Of a stretch of 25,222 bases of DNA, positions 119-11,450 are shown one piece after another (within the stretch, counting starts at the first letter, position 1; each line of letters starts with the position of its first letter). The DNA is taken from positions 1 to 25,222 of IMG/VR virus record IMGVR_UViG_3300008113_000463; one strand, given 5' to 3'. The position numbers and the translations under genes were made by a program. The notes beneath the pieces were generated by a model. The model ran no database searches. It worked only from the letters and a program-made list of their open reading frames with translations, and was not told where the DNA came from. Source of the DNA: a virus.

Positions 119-190
119 TTACGATAAGAAAAATATTCTCCCAAAAAAGGTGTGTCGCTATTGACCAATGTCAGTGGTAGGCTGTATAAT
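119..190 (+). promoter_or_regulatory. Regulatory cassette: 28-bp element plus TGTCAGTGGT promoter (copy 1)
   Basis: The 28-bp element occupies 119-146 (TTACGA at 119, CCC at 140-142). The promoter has TGTCAGTGGT at 169-178, a 6-bp gap and TATAAT at 185-190. A TTGACC at 161-166 could be a -35 box with an 18-bp spacer. Element start to -10 start is 66 bp. A GCCGACC box lies upstream at 92-98. The promoter should drive 223-736. Confidence 0.75.
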
Positions 191-222
191 AATAACATCA
201 AGAAAAGAATAGGAAAATAAAA

Positions 223-414
223 ATGGAAAAAAGATACTCATTTGGTGGTTTTAGTTTTGGCTCTAACGGACTATTCCAACTAACAATCAGCACAATCAAC
301 CCAACAAAAGAGTTTGGCTCAACTCACACAATGGAGTTAGGCGTAGAACTAACACCAGCAGAACGCCAAGAACTAATCACAATTCTACTACTAGCAGAGA
401 AAGAAGATAACTAA
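223..414 (+). CDS. Hypothetical protein, 63 aa
   Basis: First gene of a three-gene operon (223-414, 414-605, 605-736) behind the promoter at 169-190. The start ATG follows an A-rich leader with a GGA at 212-214 as a weak ribosome-binding site. The N-terminal half is glycine- and serine-rich with short beta-prone stretches. The C-terminal half, from about residue 40, looks like one amphipathic helix (LTPAERQELITILLLAEKE). The LTPAERQEL pattern is common at domain edges of small phage proteins but identifies no family. The stop overlaps the next start as TAATG, so translation is probably coupled. Confidence 0.8.
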   Translation: MEKRYSFGGFSFGSNGLFQLTISTINPTKEFGSTHTMELGVELTPAERQELITILLLAEKEDN

Positions 415-605
415 TGATGACACGCAAGGACTATGTTGCTACCGCTGAAATTCTAGCAGAGAGTAGAGATGGTTTGCTCTCTATGGGATTAGATGGCGAA
501 AGAATTTTTGAGAGCCTAGTAAGTGATTTTATTTCTATGTTCCAAGAAGACAACGACAGATTTATTGTTAGCAAGTTTGCTGACGCTTGCTGGGAAGGAA
601 ACTAA
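414..605 (+). CDS. Hypothetical phage protein, 63 aa (MTRKDYVATAEIL type)
   Basis: Starts at the first of two consecutive ATG codons, overlapping the previous stop; starting at 417 would lose one residue. The sequence is a small all-helical protein with an MTRKDYVATAEIL start and a FISMFQEDNDRF segment. I recognise this as a pattern seen in many phage hypothetical proteins, where a conserved aromatic/acidic helix precedes an F..F..AC ending. No function is established for such proteins. It is the middle gene of its operon. Confidence 0.85.
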   Translation: MMTRKDYVATAEILAESRDGLLSMGLDGERIFESLVSDFISMFQEDNDRFIVSKFADACWEGN

Positions 606-736
606 TGGAAATTATTTTATTGCTAGGCTATGTGCCAGTTGTTGTTTATTTATTTTGGCAAAGTTATTTGCTCAACCAATTACAGCAGTTAGCAAACAAA
701 CAGCACGAAGAAATAAAAAGACTAAAGCCATTTTAG
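605..736 (+). CDS. Small single-pass membrane protein, 43 aa
   Basis: The ATG overlaps the upstream TAA (TAATG) and the frame runs to TAG at 734-736. Residues 2-18 form one hydrophobic segment (EIILLLGYVPVVVYLFW), followed by a charged helix rich in Q, K and E that could form a coiled coil. This gives a membrane anchor with a short soluble tail. The function is unknown. A longer frame over the same DNA (523-798) is a shadow, because this frame is coupled to its neighbour and ends just before the hairpin at 747. Confidence 0.75.
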   Translation: MEIILLLGYVPVVVYLFWQSYLLNQLQQLANKQHEEIKRLKPF

Positions 737-746
737 TTTTAGCAAT

Positions 747-766
747 CGCTACCCTTCGGGGTGGCG
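747..766 (+). terminator. Hairpin with TTCG loop ending the first operon
   Basis: An 8-bp stem with one G-T pair (747-754 with 759-766) is closed by TTCG at 755-758. No clear T-run follows. It lies 10 bases after the stop of the 43-aa gene and 5 bases before a reverse-oriented GCCGACC box (772-778). Confidence 0.6.
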
Positions 767-798
767 GTTGTGGTCGGCAGCCAAAGATAACGATTTAA

Positions 799-857
799 TT
801 AAGAACATTAAAAAAGGTTCCCGAAATCCCCACAATGTCAGTGGTGTAATGTATAAT
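799..857 (+). promoter_or_regulatory. Regulatory cassette: 28-bp element plus TGTCAGTGGT promoter (copy 2)
   Basis: The element at 799-826 begins TTAAGAA instead of TTACGAA but keeps CCC at 820-822. TGTCAGTGGT at 836-845, a 6-bp gap and TATAAT at 852-857 form the promoter. Element start to -10 start is 53 bp. Only 6 bases separate the -10 box from the ATG at 864, so the transcript should begin at the start codon. Confidence 0.8.
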
Positions 858-863
858 AGGACT

Positions 864-1034
864 ATGAAGAAAAGAAAGCCACCACTAAATAAAGTTGCTC
901 AGGCAACACGCAACGCACACTCAGCAGAACTTTTTAGAAGTCTGTTGCTAAACAAGCACATTGTCGCTACACCTGCCACTCGCAAGGGTAGTCGCAAAGC
1001 CAACATCACTAACGCTATCAAGGAGTATAACTAA
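864..1034 (+). CDS. Small basic hypothetical protein, 56 aa (leaderless)
   Basis: The frame could be extended upstream to a TTG at 768, but that would run back through the promoter, so ATG 864 is chosen. With TATAAT ending at 857 the mRNA should start at or next to the A of ATG, a leaderless gene as is common in Actinobacteria. The protein is strongly basic (MKKRKPPLNK start, later TRKGSRK), which suggests nucleic-acid or ribosome contact, though that is only inference. The stop overlaps the next ATG (TAATG). Confidence 0.75.
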   Translation: MKKRKPPLNKVAQATRNAHSAELFRSLLLNKHIVATPATRKGSRKANITNAIKEYN

Positions 1035-1333
1035 TGGCTAAGAAAACAACTATTCACTTACAGGACATAACAGACCTGCCACTTGAACACCAGATACATC
1101 AAATCTTTATTGGTAAGGGTTTGCGTTCTACTTATGGCAACAGACTAAATCTAATAGAGTTAGCAGAAGAAATGGTATTTGCTCTTGACTTTGTAAATGA
1201 CGGAAATCCTGAACAACTTATCGCATTGAATACCCTGCCAGACCTAACAGGTGAAGACGGAGTTCCAGCGTTAGACCTAGTAAAGTATTTTGGATTAGAA
1301 GACTATGTTATGGAGAGTGTGCTAAATGGATAA
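1034..1333 (+). CDS. Hypothetical protein, 99 aa
   Basis: Translation is coupled to the preceding gene by TAATG, with an AAGGAG ribosome-binding site at 1019-1024 inside that gene. The protein begins MAKKTTIHLQD, then has mixed alpha/beta character and an acidic C-terminal half. No catalytic motif, metal-binding pattern or membrane segment is visible. It overlaps the next gene by 8 bp. I do not recognise the family. Confidence 0.8.
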   Translation: MAKKTTIHLQDITDLPLEHQIHQIFIGKGLRSTYGNRLNLIELAEEMVFALDFVNDGNPEQLIALNTLPDLTGEDGVPALDLVKYFGLEDYVMESVLNG

Positions 1334-1685
1334 GAAAACTATTATTGAGAAATACAGTATTGACCCTAATCAAACCTTAGATGTGTTTTATGAAAATGGT
1401 GAGGTGTGGTGTAGTGAAGATGGTGAGTGGTCAGTAATGCATTGTGGTGAAATGAGAGTTGATTACAATGGAGAGAGACTATACACAAACACAGACTTTA
1501 TCAAAGCAGGTCTAGACACAGATGACAAAGTTGGTGAAGCAGAGGGTAACGAAGAACTCTATTGGCACATGAACCCATGGTTTATTGTTGCTAAAAAAGA
1601 TGACCTAGATAATGAGTATGGCATTACAGGCAACATCGTTGATGCAATAGAGCAAGCCCTAGTTTTAGCCAATGTCAGTGGTTAG
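1326..1685 (+). CDS. Hypothetical acidic protein, 119 aa
   Basis: Third gene of the 864-1685 operon. It is acidic and rich in aromatic residues (WCSEDGEWSV, YWHMNPWF), with a beta-rich central part that may be a small single-domain fold. Its last codons (Asn-Val-Ser-Gly-stop) are also the TGTCAGTGGT box of the promoter for the next gene, so coding and control sequence are the same DNA. The function is unknown. Confidence 0.8.
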   Translation: MDKKTIIEKYSIDPNQTLDVFYENGEVWCSEDGEWSVMHCGEMRVDYNGERLYTNTDFIKAGLDTDDKVGEAEGNEELYWHMNPWFIVAKKDDLDNEYGITGNIVDAIEQALVLANVSG

Positions 1686-1694
1686 TAGTATAAT
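1673..1694 (+). promoter_or_regulatory. TGTCAGTGGT promoter embedded in a gene end (copy 3)
   Basis: TGTCAGTGGT at 1673-1682, a 6-bp gap and TATAAT at 1689-1694. No 28-bp element or TTGACA-like -35 box lies upstream. It should drive the 50-aa gene at 1719. Confidence 0.8.
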
Positions 1695-1718
1695 AAATCT
1701 ATCAAACAAAGGAATGGT

Positions 1719-1871
1719 ATGAAAGAAACAATAGTATTTGTAATTACCCATCGTGATGGCTCAGAGGTGAAACACGCCTATGACCTAGAACACAAAGATA
1801 AGGCTCGTGAGTTTTATAAAAAGTTGCTCAAAGATAACCTCATCATTGGCTGGGGTATTGAGGGTAAATAG
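1719..1871 (+). CDS. Hypothetical protein, 50 aa
   Basis: ATG 1719 is used because an ATG at 1714 is closed by a stop after two codons; AAAGGAA at 1708-1714 is the ribosome-binding site. The first third is a beta-prone stretch (TIVFVITHRDGSEV), followed by a basic helix (KDKAREFYKKLL) and a glycine-rich end. It stands alone between two TGTCAGTGGT promoters, so it is probably expressed separately. The family is not recognised. Confidence 0.75.
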   Translation: MKETIVFVITHRDGSEVKHAYDLEHKDKAREFYKKLLKDNLIIGWGIEGK

Positions 1872-1877
1872 TTTCAA

Positions 1878-1899
1878 TGTCAGTGGTCAGTAGTATAAT
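1878..1899 (+). promoter_or_regulatory. TGTCAGTGGT promoter (copy 4)
   Basis: TGTCAGTGGT at 1878-1887, a 6-bp gap and TATAAT at 1894-1899, starting 6 bases after the previous stop. No 28-bp element lies upstream. It drives the 43-aa gene at 1925. Confidence 0.8.
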
Positions 1900-1924
1900 A
1901 GTATTACTAAACAAGGAGAGATAA

Positions 1925-2056
1925 ATGGATAACGAAGATAAAGAATACATCACAGAAATCTTTGACCAGTTTCACAAAGGTGAGATAGATGTCTTAGACC
2001 TAATGGAAGAACTTGAGACTGCCAGATTTGATGGCGACATAATTGACTTCCTGTAA
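1925..2056 (+). CDS. Small acidic hypothetical protein, 43 aa
   Basis: An AAGGAGAG ribosome-binding site (1913-1920) sits 4 bases before the ATG. The protein is highly acidic and predicted helical (MDNEDKEYITEIF, then DLMEELETARFDGDIIDFL). Such short acidic phage proteins can act as nucleic-acid mimics or inhibitors of host enzymes, but nothing here proves it. It is a single-gene unit between its own promoter and the hairpin at 2061. Confidence 0.75.
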   Translation: MDNEDKEYITEIFDQFHKGEIDVLDLMEELETARFDGDIIDFL

Positions 2057-2060
2057 AGGT

Positions 2061-2076
2061 TAGCCCTTCGGGGTTG
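2061..2076 (+). terminator. TTCG-loop hairpin after the 43-aa gene
   Basis: A CCC-TTCG-GGG core (2064-2073) is extended by weaker A-T and G-T pairs. A GCCGACC box follows immediately at 2076-2082. There is no T-run. Confidence 0.45.
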
Positions 2077-2100
2077 CCGACCGCCAAGGTAACGTTTCAG

Positions 2101-2159
2101 TTACGATACATTAAAAACGCTCCCTAAATATTGCTAATGTCAGAGGTATCAAGTATAAT
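2101..2159 (+). promoter_or_regulatory. Regulatory cassette: 28-bp element plus promoter (copy 5)
   Basis: The element lies at 2101-2128 (TTACGAT, CCC at 2122-2124). The promoter box at 2138-2147 reads TGTCAGAGGT (one change), then a 6-bp gap and TATAAT at 2154-2159. Element start to -10 start is 53 bp, as in copy 2. Confidence 0.8.
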
Positions 2160-2186
2160 TATACTATCAAAAGAAAAGGAAACCCT

Positions 2187-2708
2187 ATGCAGATAAACAG
2201 CGAACTAATAATTGCAGAACTATCTTCAGACTGCACTTGCCTAAACTACAATGAAGAAACTGGCGAAGACGAGCCAATGGAATACTGCTATGGTGATTGC
2301 TGGGAGATGCAAAAAGAAGATACCGCTTATGTTATTGGTGAGTGGCAGAAACTAAACGAGATAGAAGAAGATGACTTTATCATAATCAATGGTAGGGGAA
2401 TGACTTGGCAAAACTTAGAAGGCTCTGCCAAAACTACACTAGATAATCTTTCTAACATTTTGACTATCAACGGAGACTTCCGTATCACTTGGACACTTCA
2501 CGAAGAGACTAAGAAACTTACTGCTAGGCGTTCATCTCACGATGAGCCAATGGGTGCTAATTTTGAGATTGACTTTATCAAAACGCTACCCTGCAACGAA
2601 TGTGGAGAACTAATCAACGCAGAGATACACGCAGAAGAACTTGGTATGTGTCTTGACTGCTCTAACGCATACTTTACACACGAAGACGAAGAACCTGTTG
2701 ACTTGTAA
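2187..2708 (+). CDS. Zinc-ribbon hypothetical protein, 173 aa
   Basis: An AAAAGGAAA ribosome-binding site precedes the ATG. The N-terminal part has a cysteine-rich acidic patch (CTC, then CYGDC). The middle part alternates strands and loops. The C-terminal 40 residues hold two CxxC pairs (CNEC and CLDC) about 20 residues apart, a typical zinc ribbon. The protein is strongly acidic overall. Zinc ribbons of this sort mediate protein or nucleic-acid contacts in many small phage proteins, but the exact role is unknown. The end of the gene carries the -35 box of the next promoter. Confidence 0.85.
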   Translation: MQINSELIIAELSSDCTCLNYNEETGEDEPMEYCYGDCWEMQKEDTAYVIGEWQKLNEIEEDDFIIINGRGMTWQNLEGSAKTTLDNLSNILTINGDFRITWTLHEETKKLTARRSSHDEPMGANFEIDFIKTLPCNECGELINAEIHAEELGMCLDCSNAYFTHEDEEPVDL

Positions 2709-2726
2709 GGAGTAGTGTGGGACAAT
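2698..2726 (+). promoter_or_regulatory. Sigma-A-type promoter overlapping the end of a gene
   Basis: TTGACT (2698-2703), a 17-bp spacer and GACAAT (2721-2726). Five bases after the -10 box comes the ATG of a 19-codon frame, so the transcript would be essentially leaderless. The same GACAAT-type -10 is used at 5381. Confidence 0.55.
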
Positions 2727-2731
2727 AGAGT

Positions 2732-2791
2732 ATGGAAACTATAATACTAATAATTGGACTAGCCTTGTTGCTATTTTTTCTAAATCAATAA
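2732..2791 (+). CDS. Candidate 19-aa hydrophobic micropeptide
   Basis: A frame of 19 codons runs from ATG 2732 to TAA 2789-2791. The peptide is almost entirely hydrophobic (METIILIIGLALLLFFLNQ) and would span a membrane once. A promoter with good spacing ends 5 bases upstream and a strong hairpin follows 2 bases downstream, so it forms its own small unit. There is no ribosome-binding site close to the ATG, which fits leaderless translation. It could instead be the start of a non-coding leader; confidence is moderate. Confidence 0.45.
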   Translation: METIILIIGLALLLFFLNQ

Positions 2792-2793
2792 TT

Positions 2794-2818
2794 CTGCTAC
2801 CCCCGAAAGGGGGTGCAG
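2794..2818 (+). terminator. GAAA-loop hairpin
   Basis: CTGC, a bulged T, then ACCCCC, loop GAAA, GGGGGT, GCAG: ten base pairs with one bulge. It is followed by a GCCGACC box (2823-2829) rather than a T-run. Confidence 0.6.
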
Positions 2819-2853
2819 GACTGCCGACCAAAAATAACGAAACGATAACAAGT

Positions 2854-2903
2854 TTAAGAAACACCGCAAATGTCCCCTAAATGTCAGTGGTAGCCCTTAT
2901 ACT
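2854..2903 (+). promoter_or_regulatory. Regulatory cassette: 28-bp element plus TGTCAGTGGT promoter (copy 6)
   Basis: The element at 2854-2881 starts TTAAGAA and has CCCC at 2874-2877. It abuts TGTCAGTGGT (2882-2891), then a 6-bp gap and TATACT (2898-2903). Element start to -10 start is 44 bp, one helical turn shorter than copies 2 and 5. It drives the gene at 2935. Confidence 0.8.
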
Positions 2904-2934
2904 AGTATTACATCAAAAGAAAGAAGAAAAACAA

Positions 2935-3360
2935 ATGGAAGAAAACACTAACCCTACAAGCAACCACCCTGTTCTGTTCGCATTGAACAACAAGATTACA
3001 GAACTAACAGCCCTAAATGTTCAGCACGAAGAAACTATCAAGAACCTATTTGAAGCACTTGGTATGATGACTAAAAATGTTGAAGCACTTGAAGACTGGT
3101 TGAAAGAAGCACTTACCATTACAGGTGAGATTGAGTTTGATACAGCACAAGAGATAGCAGAGATTTTTGGTTTCTCGCTAACAGAAGAAGTTGAAATGGA
3201 ATTGACTTTCAAGGTATCAGCAACTTTCACTGTTCCTATTGGGTTTGACCACGACAGCCTCGCTAGTGATTTTGGTATCACAGAGAACCCACTAGGCGTA
3301 GCAGAAGAATACCTAGATAATTCATCTTGGGAATTAGATGACTGGAACATCACATCTTAG
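2935..3360 (+). CDS. Hypothetical protein with coiled coil, 141 aa
   Basis: The frame is open back to an ATG at 2881, but that ATG is part of the promoter box, so the start is placed at ATG 2935 behind AAAGAAGAAAAA. Residues about 15-60 are a long polar helix with heptad character (ALNNKITELTALNVQHEETI), suggesting a coiled coil and oligomerisation. Residues about 60-80 are acidic and helical. The C-terminal half has a beta segment (VEMELTFKVSATFTVPIG) and an acidic end. The function is unknown. It is the only gene between its promoter and the structured region at 3361-3548. Confidence 0.8.
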   Translation: MEENTNPTSNHPVLFALNNKITELTALNVQHEETIKNLFEALGMMTKNVEALEDWLKEALTITGEIEFDTAQEIAEIFGFSLTEEVEMELTFKVSATFTVPIGFDHDSLASDFGITENPLGVAEEYLDNSSWELDDWNITS

Positions 3361-3548
3361 GCAGTTCCCTTTCTTTTCTGCCTAACACACCTGAGCAAGT
3401 GTAAAAACTGCTCATAGAACTCTAACTAGATACCTAGGCTCTATGCTAGTTAGCGGAATGGCTGGTTCGTCAATTCAGCAAGTCGTGGCATGTTCGCAAG
3501 AAGTCATGGCGATACCTGAGCAAGTATAAAAACTGCTCATCTTTTTGC
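3361..3548 (+). ncRNA. Candidate structured RNA or 3' UTR with repeated hairpins
   Basis: This gene-free stretch is rich in pairing. There is a TTAGGCAG/CTGCCTAA hairpin around 3358-3386, a TGAGC-A-AGT hairpin at 3392-3414, a perfect CTAACTAG/CTAGTTAG stem near 3421-3454, and a second copy of the TGAGC hairpin at 3517-3539 followed by TCTTTTT. The two TGAGC hairpins bracket the region and differ by one loop base. A variant with compensatory changes occurs at 5183-5203. No reading frame fits. It may be a 3' UTR or a separately acting RNA; no known family is recognised. Confidence 0.5.
3517..3547 (+). terminator. Intrinsic terminator
   Basis: Stem TGAGC (3517-3521) with GCTCA (3535-3539), a bulged A, inner AGT/ACT pairs and a six-base loop, followed by T-rich 3540-3546. 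It closes the unit beginning at 2898. A GTCGGC box follows at 3549-3554. Confidence 0.75.
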
Positions 3549-3577
3549 GTCGGCACAGATAACAAACGCATAACCAT

Positions 3578-3629
3578 TTACGAAACACCTTACGAAACCC
3601 TTGACATTTCTCCTGAATAATGGGATAAT
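3578..3629 (+). promoter_or_regulatory. 28-bp element overlapping a sigma-A promoter
   Basis: A TTACGAA half-copy lies at 3578-3584. The full element is at 3590-3617 (TTACGAA, CTCC at 3610-3613). TTGACA (3601-3606), a 17-bp spacer and GATAAT (3624-3629) form the promoter, so the -35 box is embedded in the element. Element start to -10 start is 34 bp, the same as at 5347-5381. It drives 3657-4129. Confidence 0.8.
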
Positions 3630-3656
3630 TTAGTATCAACTAAAAAAAGGATACCT

Positions 3657-3905
3657 ATGATAAACCCTGACCTTATTCTACCTTTCTATGTTTCACCTAA
3701 CGGAGATTATGGGGACGCTACTGGTTTAGTAGTGATTGATGTTCAAGACTTTGATGACCATTTCTTTGGATACCTTGACGAGTGTAGCGATTGGCTAAGA
3801 CCTAGTTATGCTGAATGGTTTGAAGACAACCCACACGACCTAGAGACAAGCATTGAAGATGGCTGTGATGTCTGTAAGGACTGGATAGATTGGGCAAAGG
3901 CATAA
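3657..3905 (+). CDS. Acidic hypothetical protein, 82 aa
   Basis: An AAAAAAGGATACC ribosome-binding site precedes the ATG. The protein is acidic and rich in aspartate and tryptophan. A DATGLVVIDVQDFDDHFFGYLDE segment is followed by a helical half ending CDVCKDWIDWAKA, whose CxxC pair might bind metal together with a partner. It overlaps the next gene as TAATG. No family is recognised. Confidence 0.8.
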   Translation: MINPDLILPFYVSPNGDYGDATGLVVIDVQDFDDHFFGYLDECSDWLRPSYAEWFEDNPHDLETSIEDGCDVCKDWIDWAKA

Positions 3906-4129
3906 TGGCAGATAACGAATGGGTACAATGCAACATGTGTGCAAAGGTTTATGATGACATGGAGATAAAGGAATGCGAAGAGTGTAAGACAGACGCTTAC
4001 CTGTATGAGCAAAGAGAACTGAATGAGCCTTGGGGTCTAAAGGCTTCAAGAGGATACTCAATCTACGGACAGGAAACAGGGCTACACGATAGCGACTTTG
4101 TTCATATAGATAATGATTTCCGTGTCTAA
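3905..4129 (+). CDS. Small zinc-ribbon protein, 74 aa
   Basis: ATG 3905 overlaps the upstream stop; an in-frame TTG at 3890 would add five residues but is less likely. Two CxxC pairs (CNMC at residues 9-12 and CEEC about 17 residues later) form a classic small zinc ribbon. The remaining 45 residues are polar with a DNDFRV end. Its role is unknown, but its coupling to the 82-aa protein suggests the two act together. A TGTCAGTGGT promoter begins immediately after its stop. Confidence 0.8.
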   Translation: MADNEWVQCNMCAKVYDDMEIKECEECKTDAYLYEQRELNEPWGLKASRGYSIYGQETGLHDSDFVHIDNDFRV

Positions 4130-4151
4130 TGTCAGTGGTATCAAGTATAAT
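4130..4151 (+). promoter_or_regulatory. TGTCAGTGGT promoter (copy 7)
   Basis: TGTCAGTGGT at 4130-4139, a 6-bp gap and TATAAT at 4146-4151. It begins directly after the TAA of the preceding gene and has no 28-bp element upstream. It drives the 59-aa gene at 4174. Confidence 0.8.
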
Positions 4152-4173
4152 AGTAATCTAACAAAGGAAGATA

Positions 4174-4353
4174 ATGGAATTAGATAAAGCATACGAAATA
4201 GTATTAGCAGACTTAGAAGAAAGAAACTCACACACAATAGGAAGACTATTGCGTTGGGACATAACAGGTCAGGAAGACGAGATAATGTATCGTGCTTGGT
4301 TGGTTGCTAAAACTTTTATTGAGCAGTATGAATGGGAAAAGGCTAGGGCTTAG
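4174..4353 (+). CDS. Helical hypothetical protein, 59 aa
   Basis: AAAGGAAG at 4163-4170 is a good ribosome-binding site. The protein looks all-helical: an acidic N-terminal helix (MELDKAYEIVLADLEERN), a middle segment (GRLLRWDITGQEDEIMYRAWL) and a C-terminal helix ending EWEKARA. The function is unknown. Its last codons form the 5' arm of the terminator at 4343-4366, so stop codon and terminator loop coincide. Confidence 0.75.
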   Translation: MELDKAYEIVLADLEERNSHTIGRLLRWDITGQEDEIMYRAWLVAKTFIEQYEWEKARA

Positions 4354-4366
4354 GCTCTAGTTTTTT
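4343..4366 (+). terminator. Intrinsic terminator overlapping a stop codon
   Basis: CTAGGGC (4343-4349) pairs with GCTCTAG (4354-4360) around a TTAG loop, with one G-T pair, followed by six T (4361-4366). The TAG stop lies in the loop. A GCCGACC box starts at 4367. Confidence 0.85.
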
Positions 4367-4399
4367 GCCGACCCCAAAAATAACAGAATGATAACGCTT

Positions 4400-4438
4400 T
4401 ACGAAATGCTTTACGAAACCCTTGACTTTTCCCCCATG
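4400..4438 (+). promoter_or_regulatory. Two tandem TTACGAA copies, the second a full 28-bp element
   Basis: TTTACGAAA occurs near 4399-4407. The full element at 4411-4438 has TTACGAA and CCCCC at 4431-4435. TTGACT at 4422-4427 sits where -35 boxes lie in the copies at 3590 and 5347, but no -10 box is visible 17 bp downstream, where the ATG of the next gene already begins. How this gene is transcribed is therefore unclear. Confidence 0.65.
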
Positions 4439-4443
4439 CAAAA

Positions 4444-4602
4444 ATGGAAACCACATTTTCCGTTCCAACTGTTGGCTCACAGTTCATTACTCAGCGAGCA
4501 GGTATCACTGGTATCGTTCAGGAAGTCATCAAAAACGCAACAGGTTCATACCGAATTCGTCTAGATGTAAATGGCGAAACTAGATGGACAACTGCCAAGT
4601 AG
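4444..4602 (+). CDS. Small beta-rich protein, 52 aa
   Basis: ATG 4444 opens a frame of 52 codons. The pattern (FSVPTVGSQFITQRAGITGIVQEV, then GSYRIRLDVNGETRWTTAK) has alternating strands and glycine turns of a small SH3-like or KOW-like barrel. Similar short proteins occur in actinobacterial phages as unnamed genes, as far as I recall. No ribosome-binding site is visible upstream, where the sequence is CCCCC ATG CAAAA, so the initiation signal is odd. A frame from ATG 4436 ends earlier and lacks such regular structure. Confidence 0.7.
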   Translation: METTFSVPTVGSQFITQRAGITGIVQEVIKNATGSYRIRLDVNGETRWTTAK

Positions 4603-4647
4603 TTCATAACAGAACTATAACATCTGGGTAAATGTCTAAACTGCCTA

Positions 4648-4676
4648 TTTACAATTCCCCCCTTATCCTGTATAAT
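4648..4676 (+). promoter_or_regulatory. Sigma-A-type promoter
   Basis: TTTACA (4648-4653), a 17-bp spacer and TATAAT (4671-4676). It is followed by the 145-aa gene at 4720. The CC(T)TATCCTGTAT stretch around the -10 box also occurs at the 8236 promoter. Confidence 0.75.
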
Positions 4677-4719
4677 TATCTTATACACAAAACCCACAAA
4701 TAGAAAGTAGTAAAACATT

Positions 4720-6501: not shown

Positions 6502-6541
6502 TTGGGTCGGCAATTTCTAACTAGTTAATCATTTAGTTCGA

Positions 6542-6601
6542 TTACGAAGAGATAACGCTTTCCCCAAATCTATTGACTATGTCAGTGGTAGTCTGTATAC
6601 T
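6542..6601 (+). promoter_or_regulatory. Regulatory cassette: 28-bp element plus TGTCAGTGGT promoter (copy 8)
   Basis: The element at 6542-6569 has TTACGAA and CCCC at 6562-6565. TGTCAGTGGT at 6580-6589, a 6-bp gap and TATACT at 6596-6601 follow, with TTGACT at 6573-6578 as a -35 box (17-bp spacer). Element start to -10 start is 54 bp. The ATG at 6608 is 6 bases past the -10 box, predicting a leaderless mRNA. Confidence 0.82.
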
Positions 6602-6607
6602 TGACTT

Positions 6608-6916
6608 ATGAATGAAAACGAAACTATTATCCTTACCCCTGTTTATGATGAAGACAATGCTCCTTACATCTACCCTGACGGAAACGACCTAGAGATTTAC
6701 CAGCGTAGGCAGTTTTTCGTGTGGGGTATGGAAGCATTAGAGAGACAACTATGGGATAGTGCTGAACGAGGTTGGCACGATACCAGTGGTCCAGAGTTCC
6801 AGTCATACCTGAGAATGCTTAGAAGTATAAAGAGCAATCTTGAAGACAAACTAGCCTATGACAATTCTAAGGTGCTTTATGACGAGATGCTTGAAAAAGC
6901 GTCTATGATGTCCTAG
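6608..6916 (+). CDS. Hypothetical protein, 102 aa (leaderless)
   Basis: The ATG coincides with the predicted transcription start; there is no room for a ribosome-binding site. The protein begins with an acidic beta-prone stretch (ETIILTPVYDEDNAPYIYPDG) followed by mostly helical sequence with several Trp and Tyr residues (FFVWGMEALERQLWDSAERGW) and a lysine/glutamate-rich end. No family is recognised. The next promoter starts 1 base after its stop. Confidence 0.8.
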   Translation: MNENETIILTPVYDEDNAPYIYPDGNDLEIYQRRQFFVWGMEALERQLWDSAERGWHDTSGPEFQSYLRMLRSIKSNLEDKLAYDNSKVLYDEMLEKASMMS

Positions 6917-6917
6917 A

Positions 6918-6939
6918 TGTCAGTGGTATCCCCTATAAT
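6918..6939 (+). promoter_or_regulatory. TGTCAGTGGT promoter (copy 9)
   Basis: TGTCAGTGGT at 6918-6927, a 6-bp gap and TATAAT at 6934-6939. No 28-bp element lies upstream. It drives the five-gene operon 6974-8028. Confidence 0.8.
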
Positions 6940-6973
6940 AGAAACACAACACCCCCTAACAGAAAGATAACAA

Positions 6974-7168
6974 ATGCCAACTTATTATGTAAAAGTCCAA
7001 GTAAATTATGACGGAGAGATTGTCGCAGATAGCGAAGAGCAAGCAGAAGAAATGGCTTGGTCTGCCTACTATGGTGATGACGCTGTCTTAGAGTATTCCA
7101 GCGTTGAGAGCATTGAAGTAGAAGAGCAAGAAGAAGATGACGAAGATGAAGATGGAGATGATGACTAA
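6974..7168 (+). CDS. Small protein with poly-acidic tail, 64 aa
   Basis: An AGAAAGATAACA leader precedes the ATG. Residues 1-45 form a compact alpha/beta unit (PTYYVKVQVNYDGEIVADSEEQAEEMAW), a pattern seen in many short phage proteins with a strand-strand-helix fold. The last 16 residues are almost all Asp and Glu. Such tails can bind basic proteins or mimic DNA. The role is unknown. It is coupled to the next gene by TAATG. Confidence 0.8.
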   Translation: MPTYYVKVQVNYDGEIVADSEEQAEEMAWSAYYGDDAVLEYSSVESIEVEEQEEDDEDEDGDDD

Positions 7169-7443
7169 TGATGATTGATAACTTACTTTCACATCTCAAC
7201 TACGAATACTATGGAAGTGGTGATGAGATTGTTGCTACTTGGTTTGACAAGAACCACACTGCCCAATTCCTAGATGTTCAACCTGACCCTGATGTCCTGA
7301 CGGAAGCGTGGGCTAGAATTGCTGATGAAGTTCAAGAAGACCTAAATCACATCTTAGAGTTTTACAACTTTGTTCAAGATGCGTCAGAGAAATTAGCAGA
7401 AGCAATCGCAGAAGTAGAAAAGGAATTGAGTGAAGATGCTTGA
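7168..7443 (+). CDS. Acidic hypothetical protein, 91 aa
   Basis: The ATG overlaps the previous stop; a second ATG follows at once, so the exact start may be one residue later. The first third has NYEYYGSGDEIVATWFDKNHTAQFLDVQ. The rest is a long acidic helix (DEVQEDLNHILEFYNFVQDASEKLAEAIAEV pattern) likely to form a helical bundle. No motif of known function. It overlaps the next gene by 8 bp. Confidence 0.8.
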   Translation: MMIDNLLSHLNYEYYGSGDEIVATWFDKNHTAQFLDVQPDPDVLTEAWARIADEVQEDLNHILEFYNFVQDASEKLAEAIAEVEKELSEDA

Positions 7444-7600
7444 AGAACACAGAGAAGAACTAGCAATGCTAGAACTTGAATTACAAACTAAATCACTAAG
7501 CAAATGGGCTGTTGCATGTCTGGAAGGTCGCATTAGCGATTTGGATAGCATGATTGCACAGGACGAATACTGGGAGAAGCAGGAGAAGAAGTATGCTTGA
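7436..7600 (+). CDS. Coiled-coil hypothetical protein, 54 aa
   Basis: ATG 7436 lies inside the end of the previous gene. The protein is one or two amphipathic helices rich in Leu and Glu (MLEEHREELAMLELELQ, later GRISDLDSMIAQDEYWEKQEKK). A dimeric coiled coil is likely. It overlaps the next gene by 8 bp, and its last codons hold the AGGAG ribosome-binding site for it. Confidence 0.75.
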   Translation: MLEEHREELAMLELELQTKSLSKWAVACLEGRISDLDSMIAQDEYWEKQEKKYA

Positions 7601-7856
7601 ACTAACTGATGAACACTACGAACCTAAGAAGATGGTCGTAGCAAAAATTACATACATGGTTGATGTAAACAAGGACAATGTGTTTCTAGGTCAGGTAGAA
7701 GACTTTGATGGTGAGCAAGATGACTACGAAGATTTCAAGATGACTGACGAAGAACTAATTGGAACAGTTGCTCGTGATTTGGAAGAAATGATTTATAATG
7801 CTGTCAAGTATAATGATGTCTACAACATGATTGATGTGGAGATACTAGATGCGTGA
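7593..7856 (+). CDS. Hypothetical protein, 87 aa
   Basis: ATG 7593 is preceded by AGGAGAAGAAGT, an excellent ribosome-binding site; an upstream extension to 7554 would have no such signal. The sequence has a beta hairpin-like half (KKMVVAKITYMVDVNKDNVFLGQVED), an acidic loop and a helical segment, ending IDVEILDA. It resembles small phage proteins of the strand-helix-strand type but I cannot assign a family. It overlaps the next gene by 8 bp. Confidence 0.8.
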   Translation: MLELTDEHYEPKKMVVAKITYMVDVNKDNVFLGQVEDFDGEQDDYEDFKMTDEELIGTVARDLEEMIYNAVKYNDVYNMIDVEILDA

Positions 7857-8028
7857 GATGACAGATAAAGAAATCGTCCTGTCTATGATTGATGGCTTCA
7901 AGAAAGTCAAGGGTATAAATCAAATGCCTACTCTAGAAGTATTGAAACTAATAGAGATGAGACTAAAGCGTGAAGACGAATTCAATGAGTTTGTTGAGAC
8001 TGCTAGAAATGTTTTGGCTGACATATAG
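7849..8028 (+). CDS. Helical hypothetical protein, 59 aa
   Basis: Last gene of the 6974-8028 operon. ATG 7849 is favoured by GGAG at 7838-7841; ATG 7858 is an alternative that removes three residues. The protein is helical (KEIVLSMIDGFKKV, then PTLEVLKLIEMRLKREDEFNEF). A terminator follows after 11 bases. The function is unknown. Confidence 0.75.
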   Translation: MREMTDKEIVLSMIDGFKKVKGINQMPTLEVLKLIEMRLKREDEFNEFVETARNVLADI

Positions 8029-8039
8029 GGATATAGGGG

Positions 8040-8078
8040 ACCAGGGTGGTTGGATTAATTTCTGACTACCCTGGTTTT
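8040..8078 (+). terminator. Intrinsic terminator of the 6974-8028 operon
   Basis: ACCAGGGT (8040-8047) pairs with ACCCTGGT (8068-8075) around a 20-base loop, followed by TTT. A GCCGACC box begins at 8081. Confidence 0.8.
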
Positions 8079-8089
8079 GTGCCGACCAC

Positions 8090-8161
8090 TTTACATAATA
8101 ATATTATTAGTCATTATAAGTGATTACGAAGCAGATATTTTTTTCCCAATTATTATGTAAA
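8090..8161. repeat. 13-bp inverted repeat bracketing a 28-bp element
   Basis: TTTACATAATAAT (8090-8102) and its exact reverse complement (8149-8161) enclose 46 bp that contain a 28-bp element at 8124-8151 (TTACGAA, CCC at 8145-8147). The arms are AT-only apart from one C or G each. This could form a cruciform or bind a dimeric protein. No gene fits here. Confidence 0.65.
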
Positions 8162-8181
8162 CTAATTAACATCCTGTTAGA

Positions 8182-8241
8182 TTACGAAGTGGTAACATTT
8201 TTCCCCAAAGTCTTGTGTTTAGGAACCCTATCCTGTATCAT
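8182..8241 (+). promoter_or_regulatory. 28-bp element plus promoter for 8273
   Basis: The element at 8182-8209 is the closest to consensus (TTACGAAG, TTTTTCCCCAAA). The promoter is TTGTGT (8213-8218), a 17-bp spacer and TATCAT (8236-8241). Element start to -10 start is 54 bp. Two element copies (with 8124-8151) precede this operon. The 8029-8272 gap holds no gene. Confidence 0.75.
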
Positions 8242-8272
8242 AGATATATAACCTAGAGAAAGAGATAACCCC

Positions 8273-8827
8273 ATGCATACCATGCAATACCTAGCAACAG
8301 AGTTACAACTTGATTTGAATGAAGAATACACGGACGAAGAACTTACAGCCTTAGCACAGGAAGAAGTAGGTGGCTGGCTTGACATGGAAGCAAATGGAGA
8401 TGGCTTCATTGGTGGTTGGTCAGACTGGTATTCTGTTGGTGGTAGGTGGTCAGATGTTCCTGTCCTTATCTACAACGATGAGAATGCTTGTTCATTCTTA
8501 GAAGCATTAGACTTGATTGACCAGAGACAGTTGGGTCAGTTCAACGAATACTTCTCTGAGTTTGACTTCCCCACTATCAATGCTGTTATGACTAAGTTTG
8601 GTAATGGACAAGATGTAAACTATGGTGAGATGATTGAAGCCAATGTATCTAGTTTGTCATCTGCCCTGAAAATTATGCGTGGCTACTGGAACTACGACAG
8701 TGGTTTCTTTGACACTAGCGACTGCACAGTAAAGACTTCCTACCTAAGAAAAAAGTTGCTAAATGCTATTGACAAACCACAGTATCGTAGTGTATACTGT
8801 TTAGTGCCAGTAGATTTCCACTTCTAA
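8273..8827 (+). CDS. Hypothetical phage protein with VGGRWSD motif, 184 aa
   Basis: First gene of the operon 8273-9892. The ATG at 8273 follows an AGAGAAAGAGATAA leader; ATG 8282 is a possible alternative. The N-terminal 40 residues are acidic and helical. A glycine/tryptophan-rich segment, DWYSVGGRWSD, near residue 50 recurs in many uncharacterised phage proteins. The C-terminal half mixes helices and strands. I know of no established function. Confidence 0.85.
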   Translation: MHTMQYLATELQLDLNEEYTDEELTALAQEEVGGWLDMEANGDGFIGGWSDWYSVGGRWSDVPVLIYNDENACSFLEALDLIDQRQLGQFNEYFSEFDFPTINAVMTKFGNGQDVNYGEMIEANVSSLSSALKIMRGYWNYDSGFFDTSDCTVKTSYLRKKLLNAIDKPQYRSVYCLVPVDFHF

Positions 8828-8840
8828 CAGAGAGACCCCA

Positions 8841-8990
8841 ATGATAAAAATACTAGCAAAACCTGAAACGCTTGTAGACGAACTCTATAACATTATGGAT
8901 ATGATAGACAACATTCCAAACCTAGAACTTGGAGACATCTATCATTATATAAACCAACTTCTATTAGGAGTGGTAGTAGATGATGAATGA
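8841..8990 (+). CDS. Helical hypothetical protein, 49 aa
   Basis: AGAGAG at 8829-8834 precedes the ATG at 8841. The protein has two helical stretches (KPETLVDELYNIMDMIDNI and GDIYHYINQLLLG) and an acidic end. Its 3' end contains the AGGAG ribosome-binding site and start codon of the next gene, with an 11-bp overlap. The family is unknown. Confidence 0.75.
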   Translation: MIKILAKPETLVDELYNIMDMIDNIPNLELGDIYHYINQLLLGVVVDDE

Positions 8991-9345
8991 GATAACTGAA
9001 AGCGAATGGGCTAAGAAGTATCAACCTAAGCCTAACTGTTTTACTAATGATGGCTATTCCTACGAGACCTATGGTCACGAACTAGAATATGTTTGTCTAC
9101 AGCCACACTCTACCGTATGGACTGAGATGGACGGAGACGAAGGTGTTTACATTGTGGCTGGATATCATCTGGCTAATCGTATTCAATACTACATCACTGA
9201 GATACCGTGGACAGATGACGAAGAGCCTTTCGTAACCATCTGCAAGTATGTAGAGTGCGAATGCGTAGATGCAGATGGCGAAGGTAAACAAGATTGTGAA
9301 ACATGTGATGGCGATGGTATGTATACAGAATGGAGTATGGACTAA
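8980..9345 (+). CDS. Hypothetical protein with DnaJ-like zinc motif, 121 aa
   Basis: It starts at the first of two adjacent ATG codons, with AGGAG at 8966-8970. Most of the protein is acidic and beta-prone with many aromatic residues. The C-terminal 30 residues carry CEC and CETCDGDG, a half of the CxxCxGxG zinc-finger pattern of DnaJ-type proteins. One such half-motif plus the CEC pair could hold a single zinc ion. The role is unknown. The stop overlaps the next ATG as TAATG. Confidence 0.82.
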   Translation: MMNEITESEWAKKYQPKPNCFTNDGYSYETYGHELEYVCLQPHSTVWTEMDGDEGVYIVAGYHLANRIQYYITEIPWTDDEEPFVTICKYVECECVDADGEGKQDCETCDGDGMYTEWSMD

Positions 9346-9518
9346 TGGAAGATAAAATTAATAAGTATAACAACAACCCTGACTACGATGCAGGGTATGA
9401 AGAAGGATGGCAGAATGCAATTGCCAATGTGCTTGACATTTCACAGCAGATGCGGTATAATGATAACCTTAGTTGGCACAACGCAACCCTAGAAGAACTG
9501 GAGCAACGAATCGTATGA
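9345..9518 (+). CDS. YDAGYEEGW-type hypothetical protein, 57 aa
   Basis: ATG 9345 is coupled to the upstream stop and preceded by GGAG; an in-frame upstream start at 9330 is less likely. The motif YDAGYEEGWQNAIANVL near residue 14 is shared in outline with the minus-strand proteins at 11850-12089 (YDAGWKHGYEAG) and 19258-19509 (YDLGYEKGHADGW), so these may be one family. A perfect sigma-A promoter lies within its coding sequence. It overlaps the next gene by 4 bp (ATGA). Confidence 0.8.
   Translation: MEDKINKYNNNPDYDAGYEEGWQNAIANVLDISQQMRYNDNLSWHNATLEELEQRIV
9433..9461 (+). promoter_or_regulatory. Perfect sigma-A promoter inside a coding gene
   Basis: TTGACA (9433-9438), a 17-bp spacer and TATAAT (9456-9461), fully consensus, within the 57-aa gene. 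A transcript from here would have a leader of about 47 bases before the gene at 9515. Confidence 0.65.
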
Positions 9519-9892
9519 CAAAGTATTGGGATATAAATGTTTGGTTTAGAGATTTAGGACATGACGAGCATGGTGTCAACCAGTGGTCAGACACAATCAC
9601 TCTTAATCCTGCTATCTATGTGTTAGATGCAGACAATGTAGTCAAGGTGTACACAGGCATCTTGTATGAGTGCGGTGTAGTAGAGACTGCAAGGATTCGA
9701 GAACTCCGCAGTGAGATGGAATACGGTTTAGATTGGTGGGACTTTAGGGACGAACTTAGGGACCTAGATATTAGTCAGGGTATCAATGACTTCCTTGATG
9801 ACCTTCCTGACCCATATAGCATAGACATCGAATCACAAGATAGTCTCTACAGTGTTAAGACTATTAGTGATTTACACAACTTAGTGGGTTGA
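9515..9892 (+). CDS. Hypothetical acidic protein, 125 aa
   Basis: ATG 9515 overlaps the previous stop (ATGA); upstream extension to 9473 lacks a signal. The protein has a beta-rich half with aromatic residues (KYWDINVWFRDLG) and a helical acidic centre (RIRELRSEMEYGLDWWDFRDELRDLD). It may be a small globular protein. The family is not recognised. It could be transcribed both from the 8236 promoter and from the internal one at 9433. Confidence 0.8.
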   Translation: MTKYWDINVWFRDLGHDEHGVNQWSDTITLNPAIYVLDADNVVKVYTGILYECGVVETARIRELRSEMEYGLDWWDFRDELRDLDISQGINDFLDDLPDPYSIDIESQDSLYSVKTISDLHNLVG

Positions 9893-9908
9893 GAACACTC
9901 CCTACTAA

Positions 9909-9943
9909 TGACTAGAGCAGTTAGGGGTTTCTGTGTCTAGTCA
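9909..9943 (+). terminator. 8-bp hairpin after the 8273-9892 operon
   Basis: TGACTAGA (9909-9916) and TCTAGTCA (9936-9943) form a perfect stem with a 19-base loop. No T-run follows. It precedes a second, stronger hairpin. Confidence 0.4.
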
Positions 9944-9947
9944 ACCA

Positions 9948-9995
9948 GGGGAAGCATGAGCGGTATTTTGCTACTTGTGCTTCCCCAACATTTTT
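9948..9995 (+). terminator. Intrinsic terminator overlapping the next promoter
   Basis: GGGGAAGCA (9948-9956) pairs with TGCTTCCCC (9978-9986), followed by AACA and TTTTT (9991-9995). The downstream arm and T-run form the spacer of the following promoter. Confidence 0.75.
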
Positions 9996-10003
9996 GGTAT
10001 AAT
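9975..10003 (+). promoter_or_regulatory. Promoter for 10027 overlapping a terminator
   Basis: TTGTGC (9975-9980), a 17-bp spacer and TATAAT (9998-10003) with a TGG immediately before it (extended -10). There is no 28-bp element. Confidence 0.65.
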
Positions 10004-10026
10004 GAGAACAAGAGAATAGAGAAATA

Positions 10027-10224
10027 ATGCGTAAGCGAATAATCACGAAAGAAGAAAAGTTAGCAAAGATAATCTTAGATAGACTAGCAGACATCACACT
10101 AGATTTAGAAATGGTGGGGTATTACATAGCCTACAATGTCAGGGGTGTCCTGTATAATAGATTTACAATCATCAGTGAAACAGCAGAAGAAGAAAGAGAA
10201 AAACTAAATGACAGAAAATACTAA
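10027..10224 (+). CDS. Hypothetical protein, 65 aa, with a promoter inside
   Basis: AGAGAATAGAGAAAT precedes the ATG. The N-terminus is basic and helical (MRKRIITKEEKLAKIILDRLADITLDLE). The codons for YNVRGVLYN also spell a TGTCAGGGGT-N6-TATAAT promoter, so the protein sequence there may be constrained by transcription control. It overlaps the next gene by 17 bp. The function is unknown. Confidence 0.75.
   Translation: MRKRIITKEEKLAKIILDRLADITLDLEMVGYYIAYNVRGVLYNRFTIISETAEEEREKLNDRKY
10137..10158 (+). promoter_or_regulatory. TGTCAGGGGT promoter within a coding gene (copy 10)
   Basis: TGTCAGGGGT (10137-10146, one change), a 6-bp gap and TATAAT (10153-10158). It would drive the gene at 10208 with a leader of about 43 bases. 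Confidence 0.7.
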
Positions 10225-10498
10225 CACTCCACTAGAGAAGCGTTGCGAAATCCTTGCTGACTTGTGGATACAATATCAGGGAGACCCTGAGTTCAAAGAC
10301 TTCATAGAATACAACGACTTAGCCTTGCCACTTGCTTATTCAATCGCCAACAACATCATCAAGATTGACTATGACAATGAAAGACTAAATGGTTTTATTG
10401 ACGAAGCATTTGATTTGCTTGTTGAAGGACTTAGGCTAAAAGATACTGGCTTTGAAAGTATAACTGATTTGTTTGATAACTCGCCACCACAGGAATAA
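10208..10498 (+). CDS. Hypothetical helical acidic protein, 96 aa
   Basis: Last + strand gene of the left arm. The ATG lies in the end of the previous gene. The protein is all-helical and acidic, with segments such as KRCEILADLWIQYQGDPEFKDFIEY and FIDEAFDLLVEGLRLKDTGF. No motif of known function. A terminator follows 6 bases after the stop. Confidence 0.82.
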   Translation: MTENTNTPLEKRCEILADLWIQYQGDPEFKDFIEYNDLALPLAYSIANNIIKIDYDNERLNGFIDEAFDLLVEGLRLKDTGFESITDLFDNSPPQE

Positions 10499-10504
10499 CA
10501 GGAT

Positions 10505-10530
10505 GCCCCTATTGACATGGGGGCTATTCT
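10505..10530 (+). terminator. Terminator of the left-arm genes
   Basis: GCCCC (10505-10509) with GGGGC (10520-10524) around a 10-base loop, followed by TATTCT. A GCCGACC box at 10533-10539 ends the left arm. Confidence 0.7.
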
Positions 10531-10568
10531 GTGCCGACCAACGTTACCAAACTGTTATAATACAACTA

Positions 10569-10610
10569 TTGACAAATAGGGATTACGATGGTATAATTAT
10601 TTTCCCCAAT
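10569..10610 (+). promoter_or_regulatory. Consensus promoter overlapped by a 28-bp element, no gene downstream
   Basis: TTGACA (10569-10574), a 17-bp spacer and TATAAT (10592-10597). The element (10583-10610) starts in the spacer and ends past the -10 box, so a bound protein would block RNA polymerase. No reading frame follows, so the product would be a non-coding RNA or a replication primer. Confidence 0.6.
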
Positions 10611-10659
10611 ATCGGCATATCTGCATATGGATGTATATCTTAAACAAATCTATTTGACA

Positions 10660-10687
10660 TTACGAAGGATGAATATTTTTCCCCAAA
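10660..10687 (+). repeat. 28-bp element, near-consensus copy
   Basis: TTACGAAGG with CCCC at 10681-10684, preceded by TTTGACA. No -10 box lies at the usual distances. Confidence 0.7.
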
Positions 10688-10759
10688 ATCCCTTATCACA
10701 TATATCTCTATTTGTCAAGAGGTATTGTTACTATAGGTAATATTGTCTATTCTTTTTAT

Positions 10760-10791
10760 ATACCCCGAAGGGGCTGGCAGAGCCAGGGTAT
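10760..10791. repeat. Compound hairpin in the origin region
   Basis: An ATACCC/GGGTAT outer stem (10760-10765 with 10786-10791) and an inner CTGGC/GCCAG stem; CCCC-GAA-GGGG is an alternative inner pairing. It directly abuts the element copy at 10791. Confidence 0.5.
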
Positions 10792-10865
10792 TACGAAGAG
10801 TGTCTTGAATCCCTAGTATAATATATAACACAGGACATTACGAAGGGCTATTTATTTTCCCCAAA
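10791..10865 (+). promoter_or_regulatory. Two 28-bp elements around a TATAAT box
   Basis: A weaker element at 10791-10818 (TTACGAAG, CCC at 10811-10813) runs into TATAAT (10817-10822). TGTC at 10801-10804 sits at the same distance from this -10 box as in the TGTCAGTGGT promoters, but the rest of the box differs. A strong element follows at 10838-10865 (CCCC at 10859-10862). No gene is downstream. Confidence 0.5.
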
Positions 10866-10957
10866 ATATGATATTTTTATATCTATTTGTTTAGTTTTAT
10901 ATACATTTTTTATAACAATTTGGATAAAATGCTTGACAAATTGGCATAAATATGATA

Positions 10958-10994
10958 GGGGTATTTGGGGCTATGGATGTTTGGGGATAGGGGG
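10958..10994 (+). other. Putative four-tract G-quadruplex motif
   Basis: Runs of four or five G occur at 10958-10961, 10967-10970, 10983-10986 and 10990-10994, separated by loops of 5, 12 and 3 bases. In a region otherwise very poor in G and C this stands out. It lies about 110 bp before the DnaA boxes. Confidence 0.5.
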
Positions 10995-11102
10995 ATTTGG
11001 CAAAAATGATTACGAGGCTTATTATACATTGGGTCCATTACACATATCTTTTTACTCCATTTCCCTCCACTATGCTATCAAAGATATACAGTAAGATTTA
11101 TC

Positions 11103-11211
11103 TGTGGATAACTATGTGTATAACCCTGTGGATAACTTATCAAAAGGTGTGGATAACTCTGTGTATAAGCATCTATTTTGTATAAAAAATCAGGGTATAT
11201 CCTGTGGACAA
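11103..11211 (+). other. Cluster of six DnaA-box-like sites, candidate replication origin
   Basis: TGTGGATAA (reverse of the consensus TTATCCACA) occurs exactly at 11103-11111, 11127-11135 and 11148-11156. TGTGTATAA, one mismatch, occurs at 11115-11123 and 11160-11168. TGTGGACAA, the reverse of the actinobacterial form TTGTCCACA, is at 11203-11211. All have the same orientation, and several are spaced 12 bp apart. Such density does not arise by chance. A titration site for host DnaA is the main alternative to an origin. Confidence 0.8.
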
Positions 11212-11382
11212 CTACTTCTTTTTGATGTCTCTTAGGTCTCTACCATTTACGGTAAATCCACCTAAAGACTTCTTTGTTTCATAGGACATACCAAAACCCC
11301 ATAGCCATGCTTTGACGGTTATGAGTTTATGTTTGCGTGTGCCATTAATCAGTTTCTTGTATTTCCAACTATGTAATTTCAT
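11212..11382 (-). CDS. Small basic hypothetical protein, 56 aa
   Basis: ATG at 11382, reading leftwards, to TAG at 11212-11214, ending directly against the last DnaA box. The protein is basic with several Trp and Lys residues (MKLHSWKYKKLINGTRKHKLITVKAWLWGFGM, in parts) and ends RDLRDIKKK. It may bind nucleic acid, which would fit its place beside the candidate origin, but that is inference. Upstream are two direct repeats of TAGGTGTATT and a TATAAA box. It is the last gene of the 12585-11212 operon or has its own promoter. Confidence 0.7.
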   Translation of the reverse strand: MKLHSWKYKKLINGTRKHKLITVKAWLWGFGMSYETKKSLGGFTVNGRDLRDIKKK

Positions 11383-11415
11383 TAGGTGTATTCTTTCTAC
11401 TAGGTGTATTTTATA
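11383..11415 (-). promoter_or_regulatory. Possible promoter with direct repeats before the 56-aa gene
   Basis: TATAAA on the minus strand (11410-11415) lies 27 bases before the ATG. Between them TAGGTGTATT occurs twice (11383-11392 and 11401-11410), spaced 18 bp, as an operator might be. No clear -35 box is seen. Confidence 0.4.
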
Positions 11416-11450
11416 CTAGGGATTATGAAGGCTTCTTTTGTTCCCCCGAA
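11411..11450 (+). repeat. Outermost 28-bp element and one arm of a 14-bp inverted repeat
   Basis: TTATGAAG with CCCCC at 11443-11447 (11423-11450) is the rightmost element copy; it overlaps the 3' end of the gene at 11423-11677. Next to it, 11411-11424 is the exact reverse complement of AATCCCTAGTATAA at 10808-10821. Confidence 0.5.

Follow-up and report, generated by a model that had tools for sequence, protein, structure and literature searches.

A conserved two-part DNA element linked in helical phase to predicted early promoters, and clustered beside DnaA boxes, in relatives of Stanwilliamsviridae phages

The 25,222-bp virus record IMGVR_UViG_3300008113_000463 of IMG/VR (hereafter the window, that is, the whole stretch of DNA analysed) carries, in its left part, 15 copies of a 28-bp element that consists of TTACGA followed, about two helical turns on, by CCC-RAA. 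This element is real, conserved and promoter-linked, and there is strong evidence that its position is constrained to one face of the helix. The element is probably a double-stranded DNA site for a sequence-specific regulator that most likely activates the phased early promoters. The putative regulator would read the two parts, TTACGA and CCC-RAA, from a position upstream of the predicted early-region promoters and on the same helix face as the promoter, and the bound protein would most likely contact RNA polymerase, activating transcription; it may also act at the tandem cluster of the same site that lies by DnaA boxes at the end of the early region.

Sequence, orientation and conservation of the element

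The copies, the boxes found next to them (with the offset of the -10 box from the element) and two associated features of the window are the following:

119-146, + strand: element 1 (TTACGATAAGAAAAATATTCTCCCAAAA); TGTCAGTGG at 169-177, -10 TATAAT at 185-190, offset 66; matrix score 25.9
799-826, + strand: element 2 (TTAAGAA...TTCCCGAAA); -10 TATAAT at 852-857, offset 53
2101-2128, + strand: element 3; -10 TATAAT at 2154-2159, offset 53
2854-2881, + strand: element 4 (TTAAGAA...TCCCCTAAA); -10 TATACT at 2898-2903, offset 44
3590-3617, + strand: element 5, extra TTACGAA at 3578; internal -35 TTGACA at 3601-3606, -10 GATAAT at 3624-3629, offset 34
4411-4438, + strand: element 6, extra TTACGAA at 4399; internal -35-like TTGACT at 4422-4427, no clear -10 found
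5347-5374, + strand: element 7, upstream of the DUF932 gene; internal -35 TTGACA at 5358-5363; matrix score 30.6
5381-5386, + strand: -10-like GACAAT of the element 7 promoter, offset 34
5426-6439, + strand: DUF932 gene of the early region, the query used for fetching relatives
6542-6569, + strand: element 8; TGTCAGTGG at 6580-6588, -10 TATACT at 6596-6601, offset 54
8124-8151, + strand: element 9, in tandem with element 10, 58 bp apart
8182-8209, + strand: element 10; -10-like TATCAT at 8236-8241, offset 54
10583-10610, + strand: element 11, first in the non-coding cluster; internal TATAAT at 10592 with TTGACA before it and a 17-bp spacer (read from the sequence)
10660-10687, + strand: element 12 (cluster)
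10791-10818, + strand: element 13 (cluster), the weakest match, score 14.1
10838-10865, + strand: element 14 (cluster), the strongest match, score 31.3
11103-11211, - strand: six DnaA boxes (TTATCCACA or one mismatch), starting at 11103, 11115, 11127, 11148, 11160 and 11203, between elements 14 and 15
11423-11450, + strand: element 15 (TTATGAA variant), beyond the DnaA boxes; overlaps the end of the minus-strand open reading frame 11423-11677

These are the 15 copies listed by the first-pass annotation, and each of them is found at its coordinate. The single orientation claimed there is borne out by a matrix trained on relatives, with training sites limited to those dissimilar to the window's own, which recovers all 15 copies on the + strand and none on the - strand; the placement, given as intergenic for nearly all copies, is intergenic for all 15. 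The absence of copies beyond 11.45 kb likewise holds: the core TTAMGA-N12-16-YCCC has no match in either orientation to the right of 11450, compared with 13 forward and no reverse matches in 1-11450, a count that is not reached in dinucleotide-shuffled sequence (mean 0.13, maximum 2 in 300 shuffles), the first of two checks suggested by the annotation. Five positions, 1-3, 5 and 6 (TTA, G, A), do not vary among the copies. At position 4, C is found in 12 copies, A in those at 799 and 2854 (the two TTAAGAA copies) and T in the one at 11423; position 7 is T in three (119, 2101 and 10583). The C-run, placed by the annotation at about 21-25, is present with A-rich sequence after it (positions 26-28) but has a narrower core, 22-24, with C at position 23 in all copies and at 22 and 24 in 14 of 15 each (the copy at 3590 reads TCTCC). 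The extra TTACGAA sequences at 3578 and 4399 lie 12 bp upstream of their elements, and 12 bp is the most frequent short repeat pitch among the relatives.

A near-identity search among named phages yielded no match to the window. The DUF932 gene, however, shows 72-100% identity to genes on 80 virus contigs and 53-54% identity to a gene of the ~11-kb terminal repeat of the Streptomyces BE1 phages (Stanwilliamsviridae). Because of this homology to the BE1 phages, in which the terminal repeat is about 11 kb in size (PMC5764925), we infer that the left part of the window is probably a terminal repeat as well. The second suggested check, conservation in related phages, gave a clear result, with the element retained in dozens of related contigs. 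Nearly all of the 80 related loci contain several forward matches and hardly any reverse ones, and an iterated matrix applied to the relatives and the window combined detects some 1,015 sites in forward orientation but 13 in reverse. The information in this matrix is concentrated in TTACGA (1-6), CCC (22-24) and RAA (26-28); A-rich positions at -6/-5 and about 15-19 contribute less. The matrix has a fixed spacing, and the spacing was therefore counted directly and separately: gaps of 13, 14 and 15 bases between TTACGA and TCCC are found at 59, 168 and 66 distinct sites, respectively, and other gaps almost never. Thus, the internal spacing, which the annotation considered fixed, is near-fixed, with a gap of 13-15 bases across relatives. 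In most of the 22 longer records, matches are confined to one region and one strand, and when three contigs were scanned in full, most matches lay around the early region. Terminator-like hairpins followed by GCCGACC are found just upstream of many elements, in the intergenic regions of the window and, at offsets of about -25 to -50, in relatives.

Helical phasing to predicted promoters

Most of the window copies to the left of 10.5 kb lie upstream of a recognizable, predicted promoter. Neither this link to promoters nor the cluster by DnaA boxes was noted in the annotation. In a set of 543 non-redundant elements, the downstream -10-like boxes peak at offsets of about 33-35, 45, 54, 66-69 and 78, with a period of 11.2 (Rayleigh z 17.5, N 396), and the TGTCAGTGG box that is present at many such promoters peaks at about 28, 38, 50 and 62, with a period of 11.1 (z 33.3, N 150). 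The controls give z values of 1.5 upstream and 5.0 in antisense, and a per-site jitter null has a mean of 2.6 and a maximum of 11.7 in 2,000 trials. Because shared descent could produce offset peaks, the promoters were also grouped by downstream gene; z is 23.8 with one modal offset for each of 62 gene families and 48.2 with the distinct offsets per family. In the DUF932 family, 63 promoter sites are phased to the element, with offsets across relatives of about 34, 54-56, 64-69, 74-80 and 90. Given that these offsets differ by whole turns in front of the same gene, evolution has apparently moved the element in whole-turn steps.

Such phasing is expected if the element-bound protein must face RNA polymerase, and it speaks against both a role at the RNA level and a promoter complete in itself. 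The proposal of the annotation, a protein-binding site read in two parts some two turns from each other, is backed by the near-fixed spacing and, strongly, by the phasing, which RNA-level or repeat-only explanations do not predict. The near-fixed two-part layout and the strict orientation would also suit a promoter in its own right, read by a phage RNA polymerase or with an alternative sigma factor, but a separate -10 box at several whole-turn distances would then be needless, and the related phage Angela has no gene annotated as a sigma factor or an RNA polymerase. This alternative, rejected on account of the separate, phased -10 box, appears extremely improbable.

Several observations weigh against the element being an activator site. 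The window contains element-free TGTCAGTGG promoters near 1674, 1875 and 4127, so the element is not essential for the promoter. B-DNA has a period of 10.5 bp, shorter than the 11.1 seen here, and one promoter-side copy in the phage Jay2Jay, with a -10 offset of 61 (counted by eye), is out of phase. A clear promoter, under one promoter definition, is found at only 198 of the 543 non-redundant elements, and the TTGACA/TATAAT class is only about twofold above shifted controls. The Streptomyces phages examined carry the element mostly in a terminal cluster only, and promoter-side copies may therefore be a specific feature of the window's clade; the element is also lacking in MiniFlayer, a satellite whose helper belongs to this phage family. 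Finally, a polymerase-contacting repressor would also be phased.

Such a repressor, contacting the polymerase from upstream and shutting off the early genes after takeover, would have a role similar to that of the stoperators of cluster A mycobacteriophages (L5, TipsytheTRex), 13-bp asymmetric sites recognized by one protein with two DNA-binding domains (PMC9283540). Like the element, stoperators occur in many short, asymmetric copies per genome, are oriented with respect to transcription, and lie in promoters and short intergenic gaps (PMC9283540); the single orientation relative to transcription is evident here from the excess of forward sites, and the copies are similarly numerous and intergenic. 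Furthermore, the gene of a MerR-like candidate binder belongs to the replication module, outside the early region, so that its product could be made after that of the first genes, and element 11 covers a promoter-like -10. However, stoperators are 13 bp long, serve temperate-phage immunity and halt transcription (PMC9283540), whereas the element is a two-part sequence of about 28 bp without the 13-bp consensus, is found upstream of promoters in helical phase, and forms clusters by DnaA boxes. Most of the promoter-linked copies are placed ahead of the core promoter by whole turns, as is usual for activators, and no immunity repressor or other repressor gene was identified, though no dedicated search for one was made. 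On balance, a repressor site appears unlikely.

The activator-site interpretation is in better agreement with this geometry, and we infer activation rather than repression, contact with the polymerase and, as discussed below, any role that the protein may have in replication. The bound protein would thereby resemble the upstream activators of host sigma-70-type promoters. The sites of bacterial class I promoter activators, such as CRP, lie upstream of the -10 box by varying numbers of whole turns. The element is likewise limited to one helical face but differs from these sites in sequence, is asymmetric, and is seen here in phages only. Its arrangement resembles that of an upstream activator site, and we assign it to no named system.

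A promoter core, ATGTCAGTGGT-N6-TATAAT, with TGTCAGTGG in the spacer region, is repeated in the window (169-177, 836-844, 2138-2146, 2882-2890 and 6580-6588); copies of this core without the element are found near 1674, 1875, 4127, 6912 and 10136. The core may be the site of a second factor. A host-wide promoter class defined by TGTCAGTGG was considered and rejected: 257 Gb of bacterial genomes contain 25 scattered stretches, against a chance estimate of 30.

The tandem cluster, DnaA boxes and genome ends

Elements 11-14 are packed within 300 bp of non-coding DNA that is followed by the six DnaA boxes and then by element 15, an origin-type layout in which a DnaA-box cluster adjoins repeated sites. 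Three or more DnaA boxes are grouped at 51 loci; at 38 of these, the group (3-7 boxes) lies about 300-720 bp beyond a tandem element cluster, and at the remaining 13 it lies elsewhere. Of the Streptomyces phages, Jay2Jay, Angela, Annadreamy, Bmoc, Tomas, Coruscant and MindFlayer also have element clusters; these lie toward the left end of the terminal repeat and, where the flank was read, have DnaA boxes nearby. In the window, the cluster is located where two gene blocks, a row of small + strand genes in the left 10.5 kb and a mostly minus-strand right part, converge head-on (about 10.5-11.2 kb), as they do at the matching junction in Angela. The cumulative GC skew reaches an extreme at this junction in the related contigs G001 and G016 and in Angela, which convergent transcription could cause. 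The non-coding junction looks like a replication or terminal control region. A novel regulator that recognizes the one asymmetric two-part site both at the early promoters, in strict helical register and hence as an activator, and at an origin with DnaA boxes where the terminal repeat ends, and that would thus tie early transcription directly to replication initiation, can be proposed tentatively, as a rather doubtful extension of the activator-site interpretation.

Conversely, the element could be primarily an iteron-like site of the replication origin or terminal region, with the promoter copies being secondary recruits in the freshwater clade. The co-occurrence of the cluster and DnaA boxes in most relatives checked and in the Streptomyces relatives, the GC-skew extreme at the same junction, and the proximity of the candidate binder gene to the DnaB helicase gene are all compatible with this possibility. 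Nevertheless, an origin role alone leaves the promoter phasing unexplained, and the cluster copies are unevenly spaced (77, 131 and 47 bp in the window), unlike regular iterons. The phase between elements is weak (z of about 10 at 10.8 bp, for non-independent sites). An obligatory origin is not favored given that MiniFlayer lacks the element. Overall, a primary origin role appears improbable. No cluster is present in MiniFlayer or in MulchRoom, another satellite dependent on helpers of this phage family, nor in the parts examined of the Rhodococcus phage Peregrin, which encodes a distant homolog of the MerR-like protein.

A DNA packaging signal for terminase cutting has some appeal because four genomes, those of Angela, MulchMansion, MindFlayer and MulchRoom, have a TTACGA 26-27 bp in from the end. 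However, the ends of Jay2Jay, Bmoc and Tomas lack this sequence, a different end motif (ATACCCC near the cut, ATTACACAC beyond) is more widely shared, and the promoter phasing is not explained. A packaging function, which fits four records and fails in three, was rejected and seems hardly credible.

Several features of the genome ends and junctions can be noted in their own right. The ends of MulchRoom (L229, 1-26 and right end) resemble those of the helper group (L087, L230 and L231): TTACGA lies about 26-27 bp in from the left terminus, the cut has ATACCCCAY, and CATGTAT is found at the right end; a common packaging specificity is possible. Annadreamy has a non-coding gap at 118.4-119.9 kb (L107 33437-34920) with repeats of a GTTGAACGTTCAAC-like palindrome adjoining DnaA boxes. 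In L086 and L087, at about 700-900, the sequence after the last early gene is conserved and includes a promoter-like TTGACA-N17-TAGACT (Angela) and a hairpin, GTCCCTGGGG...CCCCAGGGAC, that is possibly a small RNA.

Candidate binding proteins, other repeated sites and significance

Among the core proteins that Angela shares with three long contigs is one of 176 aa (Angela gp69 family), whose gene is separated from the downstream DnaB helicase gene by a few small genes. This protein is annotated as MerR-like or helix-turn-helix in relatives and is found in 127 Streptomyces phage records, a conservation that is not evidence of binding because all core genes share such a distribution. Its structural model is of low confidence (mean pLDDT 66), and a fold search of the PDB with this model gave no significant match (E 0.3-0.6), with RacA, HiNmlR and BldC among the weak hits. 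The MerR-like protein can be regarded as the leading, weakly supported, candidate binder. A WhiB-family regulator encoded in the window (22729-23019, - strand; PF02467, E 1.7e-11) is another possible binder, or a possible co-regulator, and a host factor also is a possible binder. The minus-strand part of the window additionally encodes glycosyltransferase, epimerase and methyltransferase genes (13949-17444) and four tRNA genes, Ser(gct), Thr(tgt), Asp(gtc) and Asn(gtt) (19547-19632 and 24967-25196).

The statement of the annotation that no phage operator of this form has been described is consistent with the open PubMed Central papers searched, in which none was found. The start-associated sequences (SAS) of cluster K mycobacteriophages are 13-bp sites near start codons with a proposed role in translation, and the associated ESAS are 17-bp inverted repeats (PMC3203893). 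Similarly to the element, SAS/ESAS are repeated, mostly in one orientation, and conserved together with genes across related phages (PMC3203893). The element, in contrast, has no evident inverted repeat, lies upstream of promoters rather than start codons, and is tied to promoters by helical phase. BldC, a MerR-like regulator, binds 9-bp direct repeats with the consensus AATTXXXXC (PMC5859096); its sites are asymmetric, as is the element, and its binding is directional (PMC5859096). The candidate phage protein also looks MerR-like. The element has TTACGA instead, with a tandem pitch of 12 bp at some sites, and CCC-RAA follows 21 bp later; it shows neither the BldC consensus nor the 9-bp repeat.

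Altogether, the control of early genes in this large group of phages, relatives of Stanwilliamsviridae that are common in metagenomes, appears to be undescribed in the open PubMed Central papers searched, and the element provides a sequence-readable map of the probable early regulon. The whole-turn spacing is a precise, testable prediction, and the element itself can serve as bait for the regulator. The many promoters in which an upstream site has been shifted by whole helical turns represent a natural data set.

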